NCBI RefSeq assembly: GCF_037996765.1 | Contig: NZ_JBBNAD010000004.1 | Coordinates: 558,001 to 622,000, forward strand | Source of the DNA: Bdellovibrio sp. GT3 | GTDB lineage: Bacteria > Bdellovibrionota > Bdellovibrionia > Bdellovibrionales > Bdellovibrionaceae | DNA length: 64,000 nucleotides | Reading direction: 5' to 3' | In this document: piece by piece, positions 6,551 through 18,410 of the stretch | Layout of the letters: the number at the start of each line of letters is the position of its first letter | Numbering within the stretch: the stretch's first letter is position 1 | Translations under genes and position numbers: made by a program | The notes under the pieces: generated by a model | The model's database searches: none | Told to the model about the DNA's origin: nothing | Seen by the model: only the letters and a program-made list of their open reading frames with translations

Positions 6551-7005
6551 TTCGTACCTCTTAAACTTATATGTATTGCCTCGCGGAATATGCGAGAAAT
6601 GACAATACCTTTTCGAAGGGGCTCAAGGTATCAAAGGAAAATAGAAACTTCAACAGACAATTTCACCTCTTACGAGGGAAATCGTAATGACCTTCCCTCG
6701 TACATGCCTAATCTAAGGGCAGCTCCGAGGGGAAAGGTGGAGTTCGCTCGGGTCTGTGAACCATACTCCAGAAGAGGGTGGATTTCCAGAGCAGTAGCGT
6801 CATACGCCTAAGGCCTGTCTGGTATTATTTACAGGCCTGTTTCCTAAAAACAATGAGTTCACTCCATACCAAGAGTATGGAGTCCGGGCTGGTTATCTAT
6901 AGCTGGAGCCCGCAAAAAGTCCAGCCCCAGAGAGGGACATGTGAAATCGGTTGTTAATTGACCGAGGAATTTTCTAAAATAGGGGAACCGTTTGAAGGAG
7001 TCCCA
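6551..7005. other. gene-free stretch between rpmG and the CheY-like gene
   Basis: About 455 bases without a credible protein gene; the 73-codon frame at 6590 has no coding character. It holds several inverted repeats: ATACCTT/AAGGTAT (6605-6611/6625-6631), the cluster listed as a candidate RNA (6653-6845), and CTCCATAC/GTATGGAG with a 5-base loop (6862-6869/6875-6882). No tRNA, tmRNA, SRP or RNase P signature was found. Promoters for rpmG (minus) and the CheY-like gene (plus) must also lie here; TTGTTA and TAAAAT spaced by 18 bases near 6950-6980 is a weak candidate for the latter. Confidence 0.6.
6653..6845 (+). ncRNA. candidate structured small RNA
   Basis: ACAGAC (6653-6658) pairs with GTCTGT (6752-6757). 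Inside lies a perfect 10-bp stem, TACGAGGGAA (6671-6680) with TTCCCTCGTA (6693-6702), loop 12 bases. At the right end AGGCCTGT (6811-6818) pairs with ACAGGCCT (6831-6838), a possible but T-poor terminator. The ~190-base size would suit a 6S-like RNA, but I cannot match the 6S consensus, and the strand is uncertain. Confidence 0.3.
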
Positions 7006-7413
7006 ATGTTTCCCCTCGAAACCCGCATCTTGGTAATTGATGACATGCCCTCTATCAGAGACTTGGTGAAAAACACACTCAAGGCGATGGGCTTTAAAAA
7101 TATTCAGGAAGCCGGCGATGGAGAGGAAGGATTGAAAGTCCTTATGCAAACCAATGTGCCGGGTTCCAGCATTCAACTGGTTATTTCTGACTGGAATATG
7201 CCGAAAATGAAGGGCTTGGAATTGTTGAAGCACGTTCGCGCGACAGCGGAATGGCAAAACCTACCATTTGTACTTTTAACTTCTGAGTCAGAACGCGATC
7301 AGGTGACAGAGGCGGTACTTGCCGGTGTCTCCCAATATATCGTGAAACCATTTTCAGCGAAAATTTTTGAAGACAAACTTAAAGCAGCTTGGACTAAACA
7401 CAATCCAAAATAA
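7006..7413 (+). CDS. CheY-like response regulator (single receiver domain)
   Basis: 135 residues from the ATG at 7006, chosen because GAAGGAG sits 5 bases upstream; the frame continues to 6958 without a ribosome site. It is a lone receiver domain: acidic pair Asp12-Asp13, phospho-acceptor Asp62 in SDWNMP, a conserved Thr in LLTSES, and Tyr plus Lys in QYIVKPFS. The SDWNMP motif is typical of chemotaxis CheY proteins, which bind the flagellar switch when phosphorylated. It directly precedes a membrane-protein gene. No chemotaxis kinase of standard CheA architecture is in the window; the HPt kinase at 8319-10268 is the nearest possible phosphodonor, which is inference. Confidence 0.88.
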   Translation: MFPLETRILVIDDMPSIRDLVKNTLKAMGFKNIQEAGDGEEGLKVLMQTNVPGSSIQLVISDWNMPKMKGLELLKHVRATAEWQNLPFVLLTSESERDQVTEAVLAGVSQYIVKPFSAKIFEDKLKAAWTKHNPK

Positions 7414-7422
7414 GTGAGGGGT

Positions 7423-8313
7423 ATGGAACAATCCCAAACATTTTCTCCACGGGCCGGTCTGAAAAGAACACTTTCGGACAGAGCGCTGTTAAAGCTTTTC
7501 TACTATCTTCTGATCCCGGTGGCATTGGCATTTGTACTGCCATTTGTGCCGATGATCCTGATGGCGCTGGAAGATGGAACTCCTCTGACGGCTATTAGTT
7601 TCGTGGCTTTGGCGATTCCAATGCCGGCAATCATTCTATTTCAGGCATTTTCGTTCTTCAAGCCTTTGGCATTTTCACAAGTAACGATTTTTCCGGATCG
7701 TTTGCAAATGTTGGGCAAAGACAAAAAGAATATCGACGTGAGTTTCGCTGATATCAAGGAAGTGAAGCTGTCTCATCTGCCATATCAAGGCGGTTCTTTT
7801 ACCCTGGTGATGAAGGATGATACCAAATACAGATTCACAGTGATTCTGGAGCGCAGTGAATATGTGCTGGAGGCAATTTCCTCTTTCAACCCTGAGTTGT
7901 TACCACCGACATCATTTGAAACTTACCGCCGCACGGCCATCTGTGCGGATCACAACTACACTCGTATGAACGATTCTTTGAAAAACTGGCGCATGCTGGT
8001 TGTGAAGTACATGTTGCTGCCGGTGATTATCTCGGTGGTGGTTCTGCTACTGGCTCCATATGTGGGGCACGTGTCCATCACAGATGACCTGGACAACGTA
8101 TTTCGCAAGATTACGCTGGTAAATTTGATCTTAGGAGTGGCGAGCTTCCTGATTCCTGCTTTGTACATCACGGGTTTGACCAACCAGGCTTTGATAAAAG
8201 AACCGAACAACGCTCGCCGTAACATGGCCCTGGAAGGCAAAGTTTATAAAATAGCGACTGTCGTCCATTGGGTGACATTTGTTGCTTTTGTTATTTACAT
8301 TGTCATGCGCTAA
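7423..8313 (+). CDS. membrane protein with PH-like cytoplasmic domain
   Basis: About 296 residues. The ATG at 7423 is chosen over an in-frame GTG at 7414. Two hydrophobic segments (roughly residues 20-50 and 55-80) are followed by a soluble beta-rich stretch of about 70 residues (TIFPDRLQMLGK to FTVILERSEYVLEAI) that resembles a bacterial PH-like domain. Further segments follow around 190-215, 230-250 and 275-296. No catalytic motif is seen. It follows the CheY-like gene by 9 bases and is probably co-transcribed. Function unknown. Confidence 0.7.
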   Translation: MEQSQTFSPRAGLKRTLSDRALLKLFYYLLIPVALAFVLPFVPMILMALEDGTPLTAISFVALAIPMPAIILFQAFSFFKPLAFSQVTIFPDRLQMLGKDKKNIDVSFADIKEVKLSHLPYQGGSFTLVMKDDTKYRFTVILERSEYVLEAISSFNPELLPPTSFETYRRTAICADHNYTRMNDSLKNWRMLVVKYMLLPVIISVVVLLLAPYVGHVSITDDLDNVFRKITLVNLILGVASFLIPALYITGLTNQALIKEPNNARRNMALEGKVYKIATVVHWVTFVAFVIYIVMR

Positions 8314-8318
8314 GCGGA

Positions 8319-10268
8319 TTAAGCGGCTTTGATTTTTTTTGCCGGCAATAGCTCGGTGATATAAGGCACTTCAACCAATAGGGAAGTGCCTTTTCCATTT
8401 TCAGAGGTGACGCTGACGACACCGCCCAGATTTTCTGCAGCGTATTTAATCGCATCCATACCCACGCCACGCCCTGAGGTTTCAGTGACCTGTTCGCGGG
8501 TGGAGAACTGGCTGTCAAAGATATGCTGAATCACTTGTTCATCTGACTCTGCGGAAACATCCAGGCCCTTGGCTGTCAGTTTCTTGCGAATGATTTCCGG
8601 ATTCACCCCAGCACCATCATCTTTGATGCGGATTTGCAGCCAATCGACGTCCGGTTTTCTTAGAACATCAAACTGCACGGTGATCGTGCCGGCTGCTGAT
8701 TTGCCGGATTCCTCGCGCTGAGAAGGGGCTTCAATTCCATGATCCACAGAGTTGCGGAAGGAGTGCACGAAAGTCGCAAACAAACCGGAATAGATCTCTG
8801 GCAATACTTTGATCTCAGAATTATTGAAGATCACCGGATTTAGTTGCTTATCCTGCTTTTCAGCAAGCCTCAGAGCGACATCACTATAGGAAGTAAAGAA
8901 TGAACCAATCGGTTCCATCAAAAAGTCATTCATGATCATGCGGGCAGCAGCGCCGCCTTGTGGAAGATTTTTTAACTCATCCAATGTGTGCTGCAATTTG
9001 CTGACAGGGATTTCCAGCTGGCGTTCCTGTGACAGCGCTTTGTGACCCAGGATCTCCGTGGTTTTATCCAGGAATTGCGCAAAGGATTTTTCCACCAAGT
9101 GGCTTTCCTGTTGCAGCTTCTGGTATTGTTCAGCACTGCGGGATTCTTTGAACTCTGCAAGCAGAGTCTCGGCCTTGTGGCAGTATTCCGTCATGTCCTG
9201 GATAGAGAACAGAGCGGCTCCGCCTTTCAGGGTGTGCAGCTGGCGGAAAAGGGATTCGTCGTCAGCGGACTCCCAAGAGGCAGTAAGATCATTTTTCAAT
9301 TCCTGCAGCATGGATTCAGACTCGCGCACAAAGCGACCGATCTGGTTTTTATTCTGAACCATGTTGATGATAAGGTTTGCATAGGCACGGTCTTTTTCCG
9401 CCTGCTCCTGTGCTTCCACCAGTCGGGTGATATCAGAAGCCACCATCACGATGCCTTCCATTTTCCCTTCGCTATTGCGAAGAGGGAAGTACTCAAGGGA
9501 AATATGGTTGCCTTGGGAATGAGGGTATTTTTCCGGGCCCAATGGTGCCAGATCCTCAAAAGGCAGCATCTCCATAAAAACGGTTTTCATCCATTTTTGG
9601 AAGCCATCCACTTTTTTCTCTGGAAGTTTCAAAACATCCCAGATGTTTTTTCCCTGAGGGCGGTCCTCGATGGTGTTTTCACAGGCGCGGGAAGTGATTT
9701 CCAGTACGCGGCCTTCTTCGTTGAAGATCAGGAAGCCCTGATTCAAACTGTCGAGGAGGGCAGTCATCATTTGATTCAAACGGGACAATTCGGCCGTGCG
9801 ATCCGCCACCATCTTTTCGAGATTTTTAGAGTAGTTTTCAAGCTGAACTTTGGCGTCTTCAAGATCTTTGATGACGTCCTCTTTTTGCTCCAGCTCCGCA
9901 CGATATTTTTTTTGCAGACGTTCTTCCAAAGTCACGTCGCGCACGAAGACGATCCAGTTCTTATCGCCCATGGAATCGAACACCGGTTGCAGGGTCAGTT
10001 GAACCTTGCCTTCGCCGCCTTGGGGTGTTTGGAAAGTGACTTCCTTGTAGGGAGTCGGATCGCAGATATGTATAAGTTTATCCAGGCTCTCGATCGGTTC
10101 GCTGAAGGTGAACAAGTCCAAAAACTTCATTGTCCCGCGAGTGATCTTTCGGACGGAAAGACCGCAGACAATCGCCGCTGTTTCGTTGCAATAGATGACC
10201 CGTTGTTCTGCATTCAGAACAAATACGGGCTCTAGCAAGGTGTCGAACAGCGAGTATTGTATTTTCAT
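8319..10268 (-). CDS. PAS-PAS-HPt-ATPase histidine kinase (CheA-like core)
   Basis: 649 residues, soluble. A PAS domain spans ~5-115, a coiled coil 115-165, a second PAS ~165-290, then an HPt domain with LHTLKGG in which His345 is the predicted phosphorylated residue. A helical dimerisation-like segment (~410-470) precedes a CheA-type ATPase with N-box HSFRNSVDHGIEAP (~502-515), DDGAG (550-554) and SGRGVGMDAI (598-607). The CheA regulatory (CheW-like) domain and a receiver domain are both absent, so phosphate must pass to a separate protein. Its start overlaps the stop of the upstream FecR gene (ATGA), so the pair is likely translated together. The partner regulators are inferred to be the nearby CheY-like or REC-PATAN proteins. 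Confidence 0.88.
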   Translation of the reverse strand: MKIQYSLFDTLLEPVFVLNAEQRVIYCNETAAIVCGLSVRKITRGTMKFLDLFTFSEPIESLDKLIHICDPTPYKEVTFQTPQGGEGKVQLTLQPVFDSMGDKNWIVFVRDVTLEERLQKKYRAELEQKEDVIKDLEDAKVQLENYSKNLEKMVADRTAELSRLNQMMTALLDSLNQGFLIFNEEGRVLEITSRACENTIEDRPQGKNIWDVLKLPEKKVDGFQKWMKTVFMEMLPFEDLAPLGPEKYPHSQGNHISLEYFPLRNSEGKMEGIVMVASDITRLVEAQEQAEKDRAYANLIINMVQNKNQIGRFVRESESMLQELKNDLTASWESADDESLFRQLHTLKGGAALFSIQDMTEYCHKAETLLAEFKESRSAEQYQKLQQESHLVEKSFAQFLDKTTEILGHKALSQERQLEIPVSKLQHTLDELKNLPQGGAAARMIMNDFLMEPIGSFFTSYSDVALRLAEKQDKQLNPVIFNNSEIKVLPEIYSGLFATFVHSFRNSVDHGIEAPSQREESGKSAAGTITVQFDVLRKPDVDWLQIRIKDDGAGVNPEIIRKKLTAKGLDVSAESDEQVIQHIFDSQFSTREQVTETSGRGVGMDAIKYAAENLGGVVSVTSENGKGTSLLVEVPYITELLPAKKIKAA

Positions 10269-12115
10269 TTTACGAATGTTTCGTTCTTCTGATGGTAAAC
10301 CGTAAATTCGCGTTTATCCGCCCATTGCGATGGACTGTCGCCCTGTGCTTCCGCGCGCACGCGCCAGTAGATTTTGCCCAATGGAATTTTGGACTTAATC
10401 AGGAAGCGGTTGGTCGGCATTGTCGAAGTGTAAAGGATCCTGGAGAAGTCCTCCGTATTGGAAACTTCCACTGTGTATCCAGTGGCACCGGCCACTTTTT
10501 TCCATTCAAGCCAGATGAATGGTTCCTGTTGTGTTTGCAGGAAGATGGACATGTTGTTAAACGGTTCCATCAATTGCGGCACAGTCAGAATCGGGCGCAT
10601 GTCATCGACATTGATATGTCCGATATCACTTGGAGGACTTAGTTGTCCTTTAGGGCTGACAGCATAAACACGGTAGTAGTGCTGGCCTTTTTCCACTTGC
10701 GACCACAAAGTCTCGGTGTTTGGCACGTCATAAGTTTGTGGGGTTTGGAAATTAAGATCTTTGGAGACCTGCACGCGATAGCCACGGGTTTTCGCCACGG
10801 GTTTCCATTCCAGTTTCGGTGCCATTTCGCTTGCCGGGCGACGCTCTTCAGGACGTGGCAGGCGGAATTTGATGTCTTTGGCAATCAACTCTGGACGATC
10901 CGGGATCGGTTCTTTCTTCGCAGTCACTTGAACAGTGAAGGGAACTGATGCAGACCATGCGGAATTTTTCTTGTCAGTTGTAGCGCCACTGACACGAACC
11001 CAGTAAGTGCCTGTTGCCAGGCGGGGCGTCAGGATACTTTGAACGCCAGCATTGCCTTCTTTAACGATGGCAGAGAACTGTTCATCCCTGGAAATTTGCC
11101 AGTGATAGGATTTTAGCAAAGGAGCCGCGGACCAGCGAACCTCGGTGGAGATAGCCAGTTGTGACGGATCATTCGTTTCAATTTCCATCTGGAAGCGGGC
11201 GTCAGTGGTTGGGGACGTAATGACCGGAGCATCCAAATGCGCCAGAGTCATCTGACGAATTTCCGAAAAGCCCACAGTTCCATTTTTATCGTAAGCTTTC
11301 ACGCGCCAGAAATAAGGACCTGGCTCCAAAGGTTCGACGACATCCGTTTTGCCTTCAGCGGTTTCTTTAAGTACAGCCACATGGTCAAACTGACCGTTTG
11401 GTGAAACTTCCATTTCAAAGCGGGTGATGTTGCCATTACCTCTCCATGCAAATGGCATGGCGTCGTCAGGATTTTCTCTGACAAACACTGTGTTGTTCGG
11501 AGTTTGCAGCTCGATGGTTGGTTTTACCAAAGGCTTCATACCTTGCTGAGATACGGCAACAGGTTGGGACTTTTGCAGAACTTTGCGCTCTTTCTTGTCC
11601 TGATAATTCAAGTCGCCGGAAAGCAGGCGAAGATCGACGTTTCCAGAATGCGATTTTTTGAATTCGATTTTACCGGAACCATCCAGGTTGAACTCTTTTT
11701 CGCCGGATTTGATCTTAAGCGCGGTGCCTTTGGTGATATCACCCACCAAGTTACCATAACGAAGGTCCAGCATCATCTGACCGTTCTTCATGTTCAAAGT
11801 GATCAATGAGTTCGGAGAGATGCGGATGATAGTGCCATCCTGAAGACGAATTTGAGCTTCGGATCTTTCACCAGTATAAATGGAATCGTTATCAAAGATC
11901 TGGTCTTCGCGATTGGCTGGCAACCAGCTGAATGTGTCCAGATTTTTTCGACGCACGTCATTTTGAGAAGTGGCGACAGAGCCAATTAAATCCAGCTGAC
12001 TGTTGTTGGATTTAGGGAATAGCAAAGAGTCATCGTACAAGAAGTACGAAAAGAGCAGTAGAACAAGTACTGCGATTGTAAATATGGTTTTCTCAGTTTT
12101 GCCTAAACGTGACAT
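10265..12115 (-). CDS. FecR-domain protein with fibronectin-III-like repeats
   Basis: 616 residues. One membrane segment (~9-28) anchors a periplasmic protein. A FecR domain follows (~60-180, with SIYTGERSEAQIRLQDGT and ISPNSLITL). From ~205 to 605 there are four Fn3-like modules, each with a W and a YFWRVKA/TYWVRVS/YYRVYAV/IYWRVRA strand. FecR domains sense or transmit signals across the periplasm, and related proteins bind peptidoglycan. Here the gene is translationally coupled (ATGA) to a cytoplasmic PAS-HPt kinase, so it may be an envelope sensor or scaffold feeding that kinase; this is inference because the cytoplasmic tail is only about 8 residues. Confidence 0.82.
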   Translation of the reverse strand: MSRLGKTEKTIFTIAVLVLLLFSYFLYDDSLLFPKSNNSQLDLIGSVATSQNDVRRKNLDTFSWLPANREDQIFDNDSIYTGERSEAQIRLQDGTIIRISPNSLITLNMKNGQMMLDLRYGNLVGDITKGTALKIKSGEKEFNLDGSGKIEFKKSHSGNVDLRLLSGDLNYQDKKERKVLQKSQPVAVSQQGMKPLVKPTIELQTPNNTVFVRENPDDAMPFAWRGNGNITRFEMEVSPNGQFDHVAVLKETAEGKTDVVEPLEPGPYFWRVKAYDKNGTVGFSEIRQMTLAHLDAPVITSPTTDARFQMEIETNDPSQLAISTEVRWSAAPLLKSYHWQISRDEQFSAIVKEGNAGVQSILTPRLATGTYWVRVSGATTDKKNSAWSASVPFTVQVTAKKEPIPDRPELIAKDIKFRLPRPEERRPASEMAPKLEWKPVAKTRGYRVQVSKDLNFQTPQTYDVPNTETLWSQVEKGQHYYRVYAVSPKGQLSPPSDIGHINVDDMRPILTVPQLMEPFNNMSIFLQTQQEPFIWLEWKKVAGATGYTVEVSNTEDFSRILYTSTMPTNRFLIKSKIPLGKIYWRVRAEAQGDSPSQWADKREFTVYHQKNETFVK

Positions 12116-12155
12116 AAATCTCCCGTGAATCTCTTCGGTTAAGTGGGGAAATTAA

Positions 12156-12184
12156 TTTACAGACCTTTGGCTAACTTATATGAG
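12156..12184 (+). promoter_or_regulatory. possible sigma-70-like promoter
   Basis: TTTACA (12156-12161) and TATGAG (12179-12184) are spaced by 17 bases, about 40 bases before the GTG of the SpoIIE gene. Both hexamers deviate from consensus, so this is weak evidence. Confidence 0.25.
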
Positions 12185-12225
12185 AATTTCTTTTCGGGAT
12201 TCCTGTTACGGGGCATACTAACTCT

Positions 12226-14061
12226 GTGAAAAAACGTGGATTATCAATAAGATATAAAGTTCTTTTGCTACTAACTTCCATCCCTTTGATTACATTGACG
12301 GCATATCTGGTGCTGGCAATGCGAATCTTTGAAGATGATAAAATTGCTTACGTATTTGACTCATCAAGTACCATGTCGGGCACAATGGCGGCTCAAATTA
12401 AGACACAGCTTAATGCCGTGTTGGGCACAGCCAAACCGATCTATCAGGATTATTTGTCCGTGTATAAGTTCACACCCGTGGCGAAATCCATTTTCGACAA
12501 TGAAGACAACATCGAGAATGTGATCGTCTTTACTCCGAATGAGCAGGGGCAATATCAAAAAGCTGCGTTCCTGGAAAAGATAGCTGGTGGTTCAGACGGT
12601 TTTCTGAATTCCATTCAGAGCAAGCTGCCAATGTATTTCACAGAGGTGGATGCGAGCCAGCGTATCGTGAAAGTTCCCTTCAACGATGATCGCGTGTTGA
12701 TCATGGATAAAGTCTGGAATCAGGATAAAACCAAAGCGACGATTTTCGTTATTCTGGTCAGAATGGGCGAAACGGCGGAGATGTTTAAAGGTGCGACTTC
12801 GCAGCACATGTATCTGGTTTCCGCGGATGGAACTGTTTTGTTCGGGCCAGAGAATCTGGTGGGGCAAAACCTGAAAACAACGGTGGCACCGAATTTCCTG
12901 ACGGACCCGACAAGCAGAATCCCGCAAGGGGCGGAAACTGTGAAAGCCGCAAATGGTGTGGATTATCTGGTGTCATTTTCAAAAGCCGGCTTCGGTGATC
13001 TGACAGTTGTCACGACCATTGAAAAATCCAAAGCTTTGAGTGCGGTTCAGATCCTGATCCGAAAATCTTTGATCTTCTTTGGTATCTTGATTTCCCTGAC
13101 AGTGATCATCAGCTTGTTTGCCTCCACGGGATTGACTCAGGCTTTGACTCAGTTGTTCACCGCAACCAAAAAAGTTTCGGAAGGTGATTTCAACGTGCGT
13201 GTAAAAGTGGACTCCAACGATGAAGTGGGCAGCCTAGCTGACAACTTCAATCTGATGGCGGCCGAAGTGTCCCGTCTTTTGGAGCAAACTGCTGAAAAAG
13301 CCCGTATGGAATCCGAGCTGCAAACTGCCAAAACGGTGCAGGAAACTCTGTTTCCGGAAGCACGCGCCAAGATCGGTCCACTTTCAATTGCAGGTTTTTA
13401 CGAGCCGGCATCTGAGTGCGGTGGCGACTGGTGGCATTACTGCAAAGTTGGCGAAAAAATCTTCCTGTGGATCGGGGATGCAACTGGACACGGAGCCCCT
13501 GCCGCTTTGATCACAAGTGCCGCGAAATCCGCTTCGACAATCATCGAACAACTGGATATTTCTCCGGCAAAGGCGATGGAACTGTTGAATCGTTCGATTT
13601 ATGATGTTTCCAAAGGGCGCATTATGATGACGTTCTTTTTGGCCTCTTTTGATTTGCAGACGGGACGCCTGGTCTATTGTAACGCTTCTCACGAGGCGCC
13701 ATTCCTGATCAAGAAATCAGATGATCCATTGAAGAAGAAGGATCTGGTGGCTTTGAATGAAGTGAACAATCCAAGATTGGGTCAGTCACGTGAATCGGTT
13801 TATGAACAAACCAGCATTCAGGTCTCTGAGGGTGATGCCGTTTTCTTCTATACAGATGGAATTCCGGATATTCAGGATCCCGCAAAAACATCCTGGGGTG
13901 AACGTGAGTTCATCAAGGCTTTGATCGCTGCAAACAAGGATTTTCCTTCTGTGGCGGATTCCGTGGATCGTTTTGCAACAAGTTTCCAGACGCATCGCCA
14001 AGGAGCGCCTTTGGTCGATGACGTGACATTTTTTGTGGTTAAAAACGACGGCATTCAGTAA
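12226..14061 (+). CDS. membrane SpoIIE/RsbU-type PP2C serine phosphatase with HAMP
   Basis: 611 residues, GTG start. Membrane segments at ~11-33 and ~270-295 flank a periplasmic sensor region that looks like a Cache domain. A HAMP domain follows (~298-350; SEGDFNVRVKVDSNDEVGSL), then a coiled linker and a SpoIIE-type PP2C phosphatase (~385-605). Metal-binding motifs are seen in ECGGDWW, WIGDATGHGAPAAL, FYTDGIPDI and VDDVTFF. The family dephosphorylates STAS proteins in partner-switch systems; the next gene encodes exactly such a STAS-like protein 33 bases downstream. No HPK-like anti-sigma kinase of the RsbW type is nearby, so the third partner is unknown. Confidence 0.9.
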   Translation: MKKRGLSIRYKVLLLLTSIPLITLTAYLVLAMRIFEDDKIAYVFDSSSTMSGTMAAQIKTQLNAVLGTAKPIYQDYLSVYKFTPVAKSIFDNEDNIENVIVFTPNEQGQYQKAAFLEKIAGGSDGFLNSIQSKLPMYFTEVDASQRIVKVPFNDDRVLIMDKVWNQDKTKATIFVILVRMGETAEMFKGATSQHMYLVSADGTVLFGPENLVGQNLKTTVAPNFLTDPTSRIPQGAETVKAANGVDYLVSFSKAGFGDLTVVTTIEKSKALSAVQILIRKSLIFFGILISLTVIISLFASTGLTQALTQLFTATKKVSEGDFNVRVKVDSNDEVGSLADNFNLMAAEVSRLLEQTAEKARMESELQTAKTVQETLFPEARAKIGPLSIAGFYEPASECGGDWWHYCKVGEKIFLWIGDATGHGAPAALITSAAKSASTIIEQLDISPAKAMELLNRSIYDVSKGRIMMTFFLASFDLQTGRLVYCNASHEAPFLIKKSDDPLKKKDLVALNEVNNPRLGQSRESVYEQTSIQVSEGDAVFFYTDGIPDIQDPAKTSWGEREFIKALIAANKDFPSVADSVDRFATSFQTHRQGAPLVDDVTFFVVKNDGIQ

Positions 14062-14094
14062 AATTGTAGATGGATTTTTTAGGGAGAATTAGGG

Positions 14095-14565
14095 ATGAGT
14101 AAACTCGACGTAAAAATGAACAAAGCATCTGATAAGTTGTCTGTACAGATGACGGGCACAATTGACGAAGACGTTGATTTTGCACAGTTTGATTTGGGCG
14201 GAAATCAGCAGATCGAAATGGAACTGGCTGGCGTTAAGAGCATCAATTCTTGCGGTATTCGTGAGTGGATCAAATGGATGGGCACAGCGGGAGCTGCAAA
14301 CATCACTTTTGCCAACTGCCCGAAGGTGATCGTTGATCAAATCAACATGGTGGATGGCTTTTTGCCGAGTTCTGCGAAAGTTTCTTCGTTCTTCGTTCCT
14401 TATTACAACGATGATTCCGGTGCGGAAAAGAATGTCTTATTCCGATACGGTACTGAATTCAAAGAGGGTTCAGTGACGCCACCACAAGGTATTAAGGACG
14501 AAGAAGGTAACGAAATGGAAATGGACGTTATCGAAGCCAAATACTTTAAGTTCATCAAGAAGTAA
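14095..14565 (+). CDS. STAS-like anti-anti-sigma-type protein
   Basis: 156 residues; AGGGAG lies 8 bases before the ATG. The first ~100 residues match the STAS fold pattern: a beta hairpin, then AGVKSINSCGIREWIKWM, where Ser52 occupies the place of the phosphorylatable serine in DSxG motifs. The usual Asp before it is replaced by Asn51. A C-terminal extension of ~55 residues (two acidic stretches, ending YFKFIKK) is not typical of the family. Location right after the SpoIIE phosphatase suggests it is that enzyme's substrate. A hairpin terminator follows. Confidence 0.75.
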   Translation: MSKLDVKMNKASDKLSVQMTGTIDEDVDFAQFDLGGNQQIEMELAGVKSINSCGIREWIKWMGTAGAANITFANCPKVIVDQINMVDGFLPSSAKVSSFFVPYYNDDSGAEKNVLFRYGTEFKEGSVTPPQGIKDEEGNEMEMDVIEAKYFKFIKK

Positions 14566-14570
14566 AAACC

Positions 14571-14591
14571 CCAGACAAGAGTCTGGTTTTT
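14571..14591 (+). terminator. intrinsic terminator
   Basis: CCAGAC (14571-14576) pairs with GTCTGG (14581-14586), loop AAGA, followed by five T. It lies directly after the STAS gene stop. Confidence 0.8.
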
Positions 14592-14682
14592 GGGTCCAGA
14601 AAACGAAGCGAGTGCTGCAGTCCAGCCTCGCTTTTTTAATTTCCTCCTTAATTTACGCAAGGTTATTACCGACAAGTGAGTC

Positions 14683-16620
14683 GTGAGCGAAAATAAAAGT
14701 AAAATCCTTATTTTGGAAGATGACGAATCGGTCTCTGCGGCACTGAAGGAAATTCTGGGCCGGGCAGGTCATACCGTCTTCGTGGCAAGTCGTCCTGATG
14801 AAGCGACGACCTTGCTGACTTCCAATAATATCGAATTTTTATTTTGTGACTGTATGTTGCCGCAAATGACGGGGATTGATTTCATCACTCGTGTGCGCAC
14901 CGAACATCCTAATTTGCGTTTTAAAGTCGTTTTGATGAGCGGTATCTTCACGGATAAAGCATTCATTCAGGAATCCACGAATAAAACCCAGGCCCTGGCG
15001 TTCTTGCGTAAACCGTTTGAAATGGATCAGGTGTTGAAGCTGGTTAAAAGCGAATCCTCTTCCAAGGAAGAAACGGCCAGCGCGCGTAAACTTTTATATC
15101 AAATGTTTTCAAATCCCAAAGTCACCAATCGTCAAAAGCGCAAGGTGATCGAGTCCATCGAGGAGGTCAGTGGCTTTGACTTGCCATTCCTGTATTCCTT
15201 GCTGGTCGAGACGAAGAGCTCCGGGTATTTGAATATCTATAACTCTGACGGTTCTGTCTCCGGTATTTCCTTCTGCAATGGCAACATTGTGGGAGTGGAC
15301 GTGGATGACAAGACAACATTCCTGGGTGAGATGCTGATTCAAAGTGGTTATGCCACTCCGGAAGACGTGCAGACGGCATTGCGTGACAAGAACAATCGCC
15401 GAATTGGTAATTATCTTATTCAGAACAATCAACTAAGTCCTCATGCTTTTGACGTGATCCTGATGGAGCAAATGAATATCCGTCTGGTAAAAACGATCGT
15501 GGATGAAAAAATCCGCGTGAATTTTGCGGCAGCAGAGGTTGAAATGTCGAATCCAAGCATCGATGCCGATGCGTTGTCATACTATCTGCATGACTGGATT
15601 GCTTCGAAGCTGTCTTTGAATTGGTTGAAGTCGTTCTATATGATCTGGACGGGCAACGTGATTGCCAAGAGTCCGACCTATGTGGATGATCACCCGGCAT
15701 TGAGTATGTCGATGCTTAAATCCCTTGATGGATTCATGGCTAAAATTGACGGGGAAACCACGATCAATAAACTTTTGGATGTTAAAGGTTACACCGAGAT
15801 CGGTGTTTACAAAGCGGTTCACTTCTTGTTGACGAAGGGTTTGATTGTGTTTGCTCAAAGAGCGGCATTTGAAAGTCCGGAAGTGCAGATGAAGTCCTTG
15901 CAAAAAATCTGGAGCAATCTGGAAGGCAAGAATGGCTTTGAAATCGTCACCTACATGGAAAGCGGTACGATGGGATCGTCGCTGGAAAGTGTGCTTGAGG
16001 ATTTCCTGACGACTTTGGGGCCGGCTCCTGCAGATGACAGATCTGAAGTGGCTGCTCTTTGGAGAAAAATCAAAAAAGAAGCTGAAGATGCAGTTCTAGT
16101 TGCACAGGACTCCAATAAAGCGACACAGTTCCGTCAGGAAGCTCAGCGTTCTGAGGCCGAGAATAAACTGAAAGCCAATAGTTTGATGGAAGACATCAAG
16201 AAGGCATTGCAGTACACGCAATACGCGAAGGCAATGCCGATGGTTGCAGAAGTCAGCAAGCTCAATCCATCCCAGGCGCAAATCCATCTTTATGGATCGT
16301 GGGCTAAACTGGGTGTGGCGGAAAAAGCAGACGGTGTTCGCCGTGCAGCTCTGTGCAAAGAAGTTGAAATGGATATGATGCAGATTCCACCGGATGAGCG
16401 CTATGATGCCCTTTATCCGTTTGTCTCTGGTTTGTTCCAAAAAGTTCGTGGTGATGTTGTGGGAGCACGCAAGCAGTTTGAAAAGGCGATTGCGATGGAT
16501 GCATCCTTCATGTCGGCTCGTCGTGAGTTGGCGTCACTGGGAGCTTCGAAACAACAAAAGCAGGATGTCTTCAACATGGACCTGAAACAAATGGTTTCAG
16601 GGTTCTTCAAAAAGAAATAA
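14683..16620 (+). CDS. response regulator with PATAN (DUF4388-like) and TPR-like regions
   Basis: 645 residues, GTG start. An N-terminal receiver domain (~1-125) has acidic Asp13-Asp14, phospho-acceptor Asp56 in LFCDCMLP and Lys in FLRKPF. Residues ~165-300 resemble a PATAN/DUF4388 domain (SGYLNIYNSDGSVSGISFCNGNIVGVD, then FLGEMLIQSGYAT and IGNYLIQNNQLS). A helical region and a C-terminal TPR-like segment (~520-620: AKAMPMVAEVSKLNPS, ARKQFEKAIAMD) follow. PATAN domains are linked to motility and polarity control in deltaproteobacteria and cyanobacteria. It is probably an output of the neighbouring kinase, which is inference from position. Confidence 0.85.
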   Translation: MSENKSKILILEDDESVSAALKEILGRAGHTVFVASRPDEATTLLTSNNIEFLFCDCMLPQMTGIDFITRVRTEHPNLRFKVVLMSGIFTDKAFIQESTNKTQALAFLRKPFEMDQVLKLVKSESSSKEETASARKLLYQMFSNPKVTNRQKRKVIESIEEVSGFDLPFLYSLLVETKSSGYLNIYNSDGSVSGISFCNGNIVGVDVDDKTTFLGEMLIQSGYATPEDVQTALRDKNNRRIGNYLIQNNQLSPHAFDVILMEQMNIRLVKTIVDEKIRVNFAAAEVEMSNPSIDADALSYYLHDWIASKLSLNWLKSFYMIWTGNVIAKSPTYVDDHPALSMSMLKSLDGFMAKIDGETTINKLLDVKGYTEIGVYKAVHFLLTKGLIVFAQRAAFESPEVQMKSLQKIWSNLEGKNGFEIVTYMESGTMGSSLESVLEDFLTTLGPAPADDRSEVAALWRKIKKEAEDAVLVAQDSNKATQFRQEAQRSEAENKLKANSLMEDIKKALQYTQYAKAMPMVAEVSKLNPSQAQIHLYGSWAKLGVAEKADGVRRAALCKEVEMDMMQIPPDERYDALYPFVSGLFQKVRGDVVGARKQFEKAIAMDASFMSARRELASLGASKQQKQDVFNMDLKQMVSGFFKKK

Positions 16621-16649: not shown

Positions 16650-18410
16650 TTAGAATTTCCAGAATGCCATACCGTTAAGTTCGATTTGCATTTCTTCTTT
16701 CGGAGCAGCGGGATCGTATTTGTAATCCGTCAGCCCCAAGCCATATTTAAGATAGAAATCCTTTTTGATCGGGTAGTAGCCGTTGCCTTCAACTCGGTAG
16801 GCACTGCTGACTTTGAAGTCGCTGCCAGAGCCACTTAGGTAATATTGAAGCTTAAGCTCAGACCACTCCATGGCTTTTTTCAACCAAGCCGCCGTGGGTT
16901 TGTTTTGCACAAACACTCCCAAGCCGTATGCCATGGAGCTGCCATCCTTGCCCTGAACCATTTGCATCGGGATGCTGAGGCCCCAAGTCTCGTCGATCAG
17001 ATGGAAGCCCGGAGTTGCGCGCCAGAACAGTTCAGCCGTTGTCAGGTCCACTTCTGGATAATCAGCATTCGTTGTTAAGTGTTGATCACGGCTGATCGCA
17101 AGACCCCAATGAAGGCGAGTTGCTGAGCTGTTAATACCCAGGAAGTTTTCAAACCACCATTCAAAACCCAAGGTTCCGAAGGCAATGCCAGAAGGTGTTT
17201 GGTAGCGAGCGCCCAACCATCCTGAGAATGGATTGCCGCGTTCGATGTCGAATCCCGCCATGAATGCATTTTCACCACTTTGCACCTGAAGGTAGTGACG
17301 AGTGCTTTTGCCTGCTGGCAGATTGCTCAGGTTCCAGCGGAATTTGCTGCCTTCACTTTGAAAAAGGGCATCTTTATCAGAGCCGTCGCCAGAAACCGTG
17401 ACGCCCGCAGGAACTGCACCTTCCAGTTGTACATTGGAAGAGTAGGTTTTAGTCACAGAGGCTGATGCCAATGAAGGCCGGATTGTTGCCGGTGGAATTG
17501 CTCCACGCACATAAAATTCCTGGCGCATTGGAATATCGCCGTCGCCTTTAAGGTAAATGATAGGGCGTTCTTTATTTAGAACAGTTTGCCAGCTTCCATC
17601 GGAAAGGCGACGTGCTTTACTGCCATCTGCGGGATCTGCACCGGCTGCGGTAATGACAATGCGTTGACCATTTTCCGTCTGAACCGCATCCTTGAAATCC
17701 ACTTCATTCATACGTGTTTCGATTTCCAGGAAGGCGCCTGACTGAGTCAGGGCTTTAAAAGAAACGCTCTCAGAGCGGTCATTCAGATAAATGATCCCTT
17801 GATTGCCGACCACTTTGCCGTTGATTTCAACCTGCGCGGCCTTTTTTGAAGAAGAGCGCGGAAGGACTTCAAGTTGGCCTTTTGCTGAAGTCAGATAAAG
17901 CTCTTTTGAGCACAGATAAGTTTGAGTGTCTTCACCTTGGCGATAAATACAAAAAGTCATGAATGGCAGGTACTTCATGTCTTCAACGATTTTGGAGTCT
18001 TTCAGTTCAACCGTCAGACTTGCCAGATCCGAGCGAAGATTTTCCTCGCCACGTTCGTTTTTGGAGAGCTTGACGTTCTCCTGATCCAGACGTGTCGTGA
18101 AGATGGCTTTACCCGCATTGTTTTTGATCGCCAACTCGCCATCTTTTAAAAGGTCCGCGGGCCACGTGAATCGCACTTTGTAAGGAGCATCGTTCTTGGT
18201 GGGAGCCTGAAGGTCGAAGGTGACTTTAGTTGAATCGATCAAAATATCGCCGACTTTAAGGCGGTCTTCATCGACCAGAGTGTATTCAAAACGTTGCGGT
18301 AAAACCTGCAGGTTGTTTTTACTGGCTTGAAAAAGCATTGGTTTGCGGGCATCCGCATGGGAGATCGAGCTTGCGATAAGAGCTAAAAACAAGACACTGT
18401 ACTTTTTCAC
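16650..18410 (-). CDS. outer-membrane protein with C-terminal beta-barrel
   Basis: 586 residues. The GTG at 18410 has AAGGAG 8 bases upstream, followed by a signal peptide (VKKYSVLFLALIASSISHA). Residues ~20-380 form a beta-rich periplasmic or surface part, with two cysteines around CIYRQ and YLCSK. From ~395 on, strands such as SGWLGARYQTPSGIAFGTLGFEWWF indicate a barrel, and the last residue is Phe (MAFWKF), as recognised by the BAM machinery. The start overlaps the upstream NTPase stop by 4 bases (GTGA). Function unknown. Confidence 0.72.
   Translation of the reverse strand: MKKYSVLFLALIASSISHADARKPMLFQASKNNLQVLPQRFEYTLVDEDRLKVGDILIDSTKVTFDLQAPTKNDAPYKVRFTWPADLLKDGELAIKNNAGKAIFTTRLDQENVKLSKNERGEENLRSDLASLTVELKDSKIVEDMKYLPFMTFCIYRQGEDTQTYLCSKELYLTSAKGQLEVLPRSSSKKAAQVEINGKVVGNQGIIYLNDRSESVSFKALTQSGAFLEIETRMNEVDFKDAVQTENGQRIVITAAGADPADGSKARRLSDGSWQTVLNKERPIIYLKGDGDIPMRQEFYVRGAIPPATIRPSLASASVTKTYSSNVQLEGAVPAGVTVSGDGSDKDALFQSEGSKFRWNLSNLPAGKSTRHYLQVQSGENAFMAGFDIERGNPFSGWLGARYQTPSGIAFGTLGFEWWFENFLGINSSATRLHWGLAISRDQHLTTNADYPEVDLTTAELFWRATPGFHLIDETWGLSIPMQMVQGKDGSSMAYGLGVFVQNKPTAAWLKKAMEWSELKLQYYLSGSGSDFKVSSAYRVEGNGYYPIKKDFYLKYGLGLTDYKYDPAAPKEEMQIELNGMAFWKF

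Follow-up and report, generated by a model that had tools for sequence, protein, structure and literature searches.

A conserved signalling block of Bdellovibrionota, proposed to couple partner switching with a CheA-like phosphorelay in envelope sensing

How is a periplasmic FecR/Fn3 protein of Bdellovibrio sp. GT3 connected to the signalling proteins encoded around it, and is the circuit that these proteins would form a complete one? The window analysed here, a stretch of 64,000 nucleotides of this 3.58-Mb Bdellovibrio genome, carries at 7006-16620 six signalling proteins, which were confirmed where the original prediction had put them. Their domain readings also stood up, on the basis of Pfam matches, of CheA structural relatives and of the fold predicted for the STAS protein. 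A CheY-like gene and a membrane protein gene lie on the + strand, followed by a FecR/Fn3-then-kinase pair on the - strand and by the SpoIIE, STAS and REC-PATAN genes on the + strand. The features are listed below, the last two being located elsewhere in the genome.

7006-7413, + strand: CheY-like single-domain response regulator (Response_reg, E 7e-24); a TTG at 6958 is an alternative start
7414-8313, + strand: membrane protein with several transmembrane segments, to which we assign no function
8319-10268, - strand: PAS-PAS-HPt-HATPase kinase, CheA-like and without CheW/P5 (Pfam; CheA structures are its best relatives)
10265-12115, - strand: periplasmic FecR/Fn3 protein, anchored in the membrane by a single N-terminal segment (FecR, E 2e-7; Fn3-like array)
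12226-14061, + strand: serine phosphatase of the dCache-HAMP-SpoIIE (PP2C) type, its gene divergent from that of FecR (SpoIIE, E 9e-34; HAMP)
14062-14094: short gap between SpoIIE and STAS, where other Bdellovibrionaceae genera have the gene of a GHKL kinase of about 275 aa
14095-14565, + strand: STAS protein with a C-terminal extension (predicted fold matching RsbV/SpoIIAA structures)
14683-16620, + strand: REC-PATAN (DUF4388) response regulator with a long C-terminal region (Response_reg, E 1e-16; DUF4388, E 2e-5)
Contig 4, about 243.5-248.8 kb (L072:4475-9791, genome G000): second FecR/Fn3 protein, then an outer-membrane-like protein and a dCache-HAMP guanylate/adenylate cyclase
Contig 5, about 114.7-115.4 kb (L090:7684-9114, genome G000): cNMP-REC-GHKL protein of 476 aa (GHKL profile, E 7e-23)

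Conservation of this gene order beyond close relatives had been set beforehand as a condition on the original prediction. When the proteins of the window were mapped onto 46 loci, the order CheY - kinase - FecR - SpoIIE - STAS - REC-PATAN was found to be kept in most genera of the Bdellovibrionaceae, often together with flanking genes for dCTP-deaminase-like, outer-membrane-like, NTPase and phospholipase D-like proteins, and components of the block are still linked in further Bdellovibrionota families. As judged from these comparisons, the conservation of order and residues in the block is far beyond chance. The original proposal of a phosphorelay beside a partner switch is supported. No description of the module in Bdellovibrio was found in the literature searched, most subscription journals lying outside its coverage.

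Other elements in and around the block show distributions of their own. The membrane protein between the CheY and kinase genes, which the original prediction passes over, is confined to the nearest relatives of the window (L038, L039, L040), and is apparently a recent insertion into the conserved block. Beyond REC-PATAN, a 586-aa protein with a barrel-like C-terminus and zero Pfam or NCBIfam matches (16650-18410) is retained beside the block by most Bdellovibrionaceae genera and is possibly part of the system; its homology to the outer-membrane-like protein of the FecR-cyclase operon was rejected, the similarity not being significant. At the other end, the intergenic stretch 6563-6683 shows 81-93% identity among Bdellovibrio loci and lies beside a small ribosomal-protein-like gene (which reads as L33, - strand). 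The stretch has no Rfam match. The idea of a non-coding RNA ahead of the CheY gene was likewise dropped, Rfam giving no match even with a relaxed threshold.

Regarding the phosphorelay arm, Pfam finds in the kinase two PAS domains, Hpt (E 8e-12) and HATPase_c (E 3e-16), and the closest solved structures are the P4 and P1 domains of CheA. There is no match to a CheW/P5 domain, the protein stopping just past HATPase_c, and no transmembrane segment is predicted. The HPt residue His345 and the N/G-box ATPase residues are invariant in 32 sequences. In a metagenome-assembled genome the reading frame of the HPt kinase is broken (L002:6498-8451), which could be an assembly error. Each of the receiver proteins keeps its Asp invariant in 29 sequences, Asp78 in the CheY-like protein (counted from 6958) and Asp56 in REC-PATAN, where DUF4388 scores 25.1 bits for a cut-off of 25. 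For the CheY-like protein the domain originally predicted holds, but the TTG at 6958, the start then assumed, probably lies 16 codons too far upstream: its homologues are mostly of 134-136 aa and most begin near the ATG at 7006, which is therefore the likelier start. Loci of family f9 have GHKL, STAS, kinase, CheY and REC-PATAN in a row on one strand (L160, L164 and partly L159), the last three genes being contiguous in all three loci, and this row supports the CheY-like and REC-PATAN proteins as putative phosphotransfer targets of the HPt kinase; neither SpoIIE nor FecR was found within about 8 kb of this operon, a point against the joint circuit proposed below. Cyanobacterial PATAN response regulators have been associated with type IV pili (PMC7690835), and a pilus or motility output of the relay arm can be taken here as a lead, not as a result.

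A further question is with which partner FecR would signal. The protein has a membrane segment at about residues 7-34, with some six N-terminal residues in the cytoplasm and its body in the periplasm. Its predicted structure, a low-confidence model (mean pLDDT 65, pTM 0.31), finds the best matches in Fn3 chains, and nothing was read from it beyond an Fn3-like array. In the clade of the window the protein has 616 aa, as against about 720 aa in most of the genus, and this difference of about 100 residues is consistent with the loss of one Fn3-like repeat. The translational coupling with the kinase that was originally predicted is confirmed by the sequence, where the end of FecR overlaps the kinase start by ATGA, and by the distance between the FecR stop and the kinase start, which in some 30 Bdellovibrionaceae genomes lies between -4 and +6 bases. 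Such co-translation through most of the family could point to a direct signal from FecR to the HPt kinase, in a sensor complex that would feed the CheY-like and REC-PATAN proteins, SpoIIE-STAS being a separate neighbour. However, between a kinase without a membrane segment and the very short cytoplasmic end of FecR there is no evident contact surface. Moreover, most of the loci that contain FecR in other families have it divergent from SpoIIE, and so do duplicate module copies within the Bdellovibrionaceae (L155, L161, L163, L165, L166, L169, L183, L184). Outside the family FecR adjoins SpoIIE without the HPt kinase, with the exception of L162, where the kinase lies between FecR and SpoIIE, and in a genus inside the family (g17) FecR also adjoins SpoIIE with no HPt kinase alongside. 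Judging from these arrangements, the most widely kept neighbour of FecR is the dCache-HAMP-SpoIIE phosphatase, not the HPt kinase, a point missed by the emphasis of the original prediction on FecR and the HPt kinase. A further argument against the direct link comes from the second FecR/Fn3 protein, which shares its operon with the outer-membrane-like protein and the dCache-HAMP cyclase in all 11 genomes checked, and for this reason FecR probably works through periplasmic dCache-HAMP transducers. A FecR-domain protein clustered with a CHASE2 adenylate cyclase has been described in Campylobacterota (PMC9239204), and we infer that FecR/Fn3 proteins modulate membrane transducers bearing extracytoplasmic sensor domains. 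Direct signalling from FecR to the HPt kinase is ranked second, as a rather unlikely reading, behind a circuit that runs via SpoIIE.

The phosphatase of this circuit has two transmembrane segments, a sub-threshold dCache_1 match in Pfam and a catalytic site whose six checked metal-site residues are all invariant (n=36 sequences). SpoIIE-type phosphatases of the RsbU kind have been reported to be controlled via dimeric linkers common to HAMP and PAS proteins (PMC12143880). The protein encoded at 14095-14565 is unrecognised by Pfam and NCBIfam, and a PDB sequence search gave no meaningful match; its assignment as a STAS fold is supported by the structural model. Ser52, proposed from the start as its phospho-site, is invariant in 39 of 39 sequences and stands as the candidate phospho-acceptor, at what we take to be the position of SpoIIAA Ser58. 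In two other loci (L175:5128-5628 and L157:4979-6517) the C-terminal extension of the STAS protein holds two CxxC pairs, and the extension in the window may therefore be a degenerate zinc ribbon. The window genome has on contig 1 a paralogous STAS protein with the motif INSLGIR (L174:5290-7417), downstream of an ECF-sigma-like gene and a possible anti-sigma gene (read by eye), a more conventional setting for a STAS protein of this kind.

The opposing kinase had been declared missing, and the circuit incomplete. It is incomplete in this lineage alone: the block of the window indeed has no STAS kinase, but other genera carry the candidate gene at this position, and this same genome encodes a relative in trans. 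In nine loci of other genera (L050, L051, L055, L056, L061, L064, L065, L066, L070), SpoIIE and STAS are separated by about 850 bp, filled by the ORF of a kinase. The in-locus protein, of 263-310 aa, escaped recognition in Pfam, NCBIfam and PDB sequence searches. It contains an N-box-like ExxxNA and the motifs DPFGSLD and GGAGLG, and a profile of 27 members, in a profile-profile comparison, matched the HATPase_c of the histidine kinases of the window genome with a probability of 94.8% (P 4.9e-8), while two negative-control profiles reached 0.1-0.2%. In more distant families the protein occurs in a single ORF with either STAS (L154, L155, L156) or SpoIIE (L162, L165), and 42 of its 50 best matches have a STAS gene at 500 bp or less on the same strand. 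Of 369 genomes from the phylum, 241 are matched by the STAS profile and as many by the GHKL profile, with about 237 in common according to a comparison of the two match tables. The statistic of this co-occurrence is inflated by shared ancestry, so that fusions and adjacency are what carry the argument for the pair. On the strength of motifs, profile match, fusions and adjacency, this GHKL protein is a candidate for the cognate STAS kinase.

In a tree of the concatenated module proteins (FastTree), the kinase disappears from the locus once on the basal branch of a six-genus clade that includes Bdellovibrio, with a local support of 0.98, and separately in genera g16 and g17. The ancestral order is SpoIIE - GHKL kinase - STAS, and the lineage of the window no longer has the kinase gene at this place. 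After this loss, Ser52, the catalytic residues of SpoIIE and the Asp of both receivers stay invariant. The only relative of this GHKL family in the window genome is the cNMP-REC-GHKL protein of contig 5, composed of a cNMP_binding domain, a weak receiver (E 1e-5, below the Pfam cut-off) and a C-terminal GHKL domain, the gene of which adjoins those of a histidine kinase and a response regulator. The idea that the in-locus kinase had moved to contig 5 was rejected, given that proteins of the cNMP-REC-GHKL type coexist with it in other genera. For the same reason, the protein is an old paralogue that need not have taken over the function. In any case, with one GHKL protein left and both Ser52 and SpoIIE invariant, the paralogue is the likely candidate for a replacement kinase that would phosphorylate STAS in this genome.

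The opposite reading is that the switch of Bdellovibrio is no longer cycled by phosphorylation, the STAS protein being a constitutively unphosphorylated adaptor and SpoIIE having another substrate. That 26 loci of the clade are without a kinase gene at this position would fit such a dead cycle, as would the fact that the paralogue in trans is not specific to the kinase-less clade, but the invariance across this clade of Ser52 and of the SpoIIE catalytic residues would then be unexpected, and we regard the reading as improbable, slightly more so than a direct link between FecR and the HPt kinase. That FecR could be a classical FecI/FecR anti-sigma regulator minus its sigma factor, placed beside the switch incidentally, has the FecR domain match in its favour and is scarcely credible in the face of a membrane segment that starts at about residue 7 and leaves no cytoplasmic anti-sigma domain, of an Fn3 array instead, of the lack of any sigma factor among the neighbouring proteins scanned, and of a position next to SpoIIE that is conserved phylum-wide.

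The preferred reading, to which we give a probability of about 0.6 as a whole, is that the block constitutes a conserved envelope-sensing system in which a partner switch is joined to a CheA-like phosphorelay. The periplasmic FecR/Fn3 protein would read a condition of the envelope and act on the periplasmic dCache domain of SpoIIE, from which the HAMP domain and the linker would relay the signal to the phosphatase. SpoIIE would then strip the phosphate from Ser52 of STAS, and the unphosphorylated STAS protein would bind a partner, thereby switching the output. The opposing kinase would be the divergent GHKL protein, encoded in the locus in many relatives and, in the window genome, most likely replaced by the cNMP-REC-GHKL protein acting in trans. 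The HPt kinase, co-translated with FecR, would sense a cytosolic cue via its PAS domains and phosphorylate the CheY-like and REC-PATAN proteins, giving rise to a second output arm, possibly directed to motility or pili. A more elaborate version, in which the cNMP-REC-GHKL protein became the STAS kinase and two FecR/Fn3 sensors set the switch, one via SpoIIE and the other via a cyclic nucleotide made by the cyclase and controlling the kinase, is speculative and appears unlikely.

Among known systems, the switch is similar to RsbU/RsbV/RsbW and SpoIIE/SpoIIAA/SpoIIAB of Bacillus in having a SpoIIE-type phosphatase with an intact active site, a STAS protein with a conserved Ser and, in relatives of the window, an adjacent or fused GHKL kinase. 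However, this kinase belongs to a family that Pfam and NCBIfam miss and is gone from the window locus, the STAS protein has a C-terminal extension, the locus lacks a sigma factor, no other partner of STAS being recognised among the neighbours scanned either, and the switch is linked to FecR and to a CheA-like relay. The relay resembles the CheA/CheY/PATAN-REC proteins of type IV pilus systems (PixG, PixE, tax; PMC7690835) in its HPt and ATPase, with the P1/HPt phosphorylatable His and the P4 ATPase of CheA both present, and in its CheY-like and REC-PATAN proteins, whereas CheW/P5 and a chemoreceptor are lacking and PAS domains are found instead. The nearest known joining of an HPt phosphorelay with a PP2C/STAS switch in one pathway is that of HptB, PA3346 (HsbR) and PA3347 (HsbA) in Pseudomonas aeruginosa (PMC2904497), although its architecture differs: there the PP2C phosphatase itself carries the receiver and HPt stands as a protein of its own, whereas in Bdellovibrio the phosphatase is of the dCache-HAMP type, HPt is inside the PAS kinase and the receivers are free. 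The FecR-CHASE2 cyclase pair of Campylobacterota (PMC9239204) likewise sets FecR next to a membrane transducer whose sensor domain is extracytoplasmic, with a cyclase as output in place of the SpoIIE phosphatase of the block, a dCache-HAMP cyclase being found in the second operon. SiaABC is a poorer match, the SpoIIE protein failing the SiaA equivalog (58.9 bits for a cut-off of 700, limited to HAMP-SpoIIE), and FecIRA differs in its cytoplasmic anti-sigma domain and adjacent ECF sigma factor. By these comparisons, the block is an RsbU/V/W-like partner-switching system joined to a CheA/CheY/PATAN relay, and not a FecI/FecR anti-sigma system.

A signalling module thus appears to have been retained across Bdellovibrionota, the predatory Bdellovibrio included, and it has likely been overlooked in annotation because neither Pfam nor NCBIfam recognises the STAS protein or the GHKL kinase, both of which belong to its core. 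It offers an example of how a partner switch may lose its local kinase yet retain the phospho-site, and suggests that FecR/Fn3 proteins are periplasmic partners of Cache-HAMP transducers rather than anti-sigma factors. In this way, the block provides a concrete circuit proposal for how Bdellovibrionota would read their own envelope.
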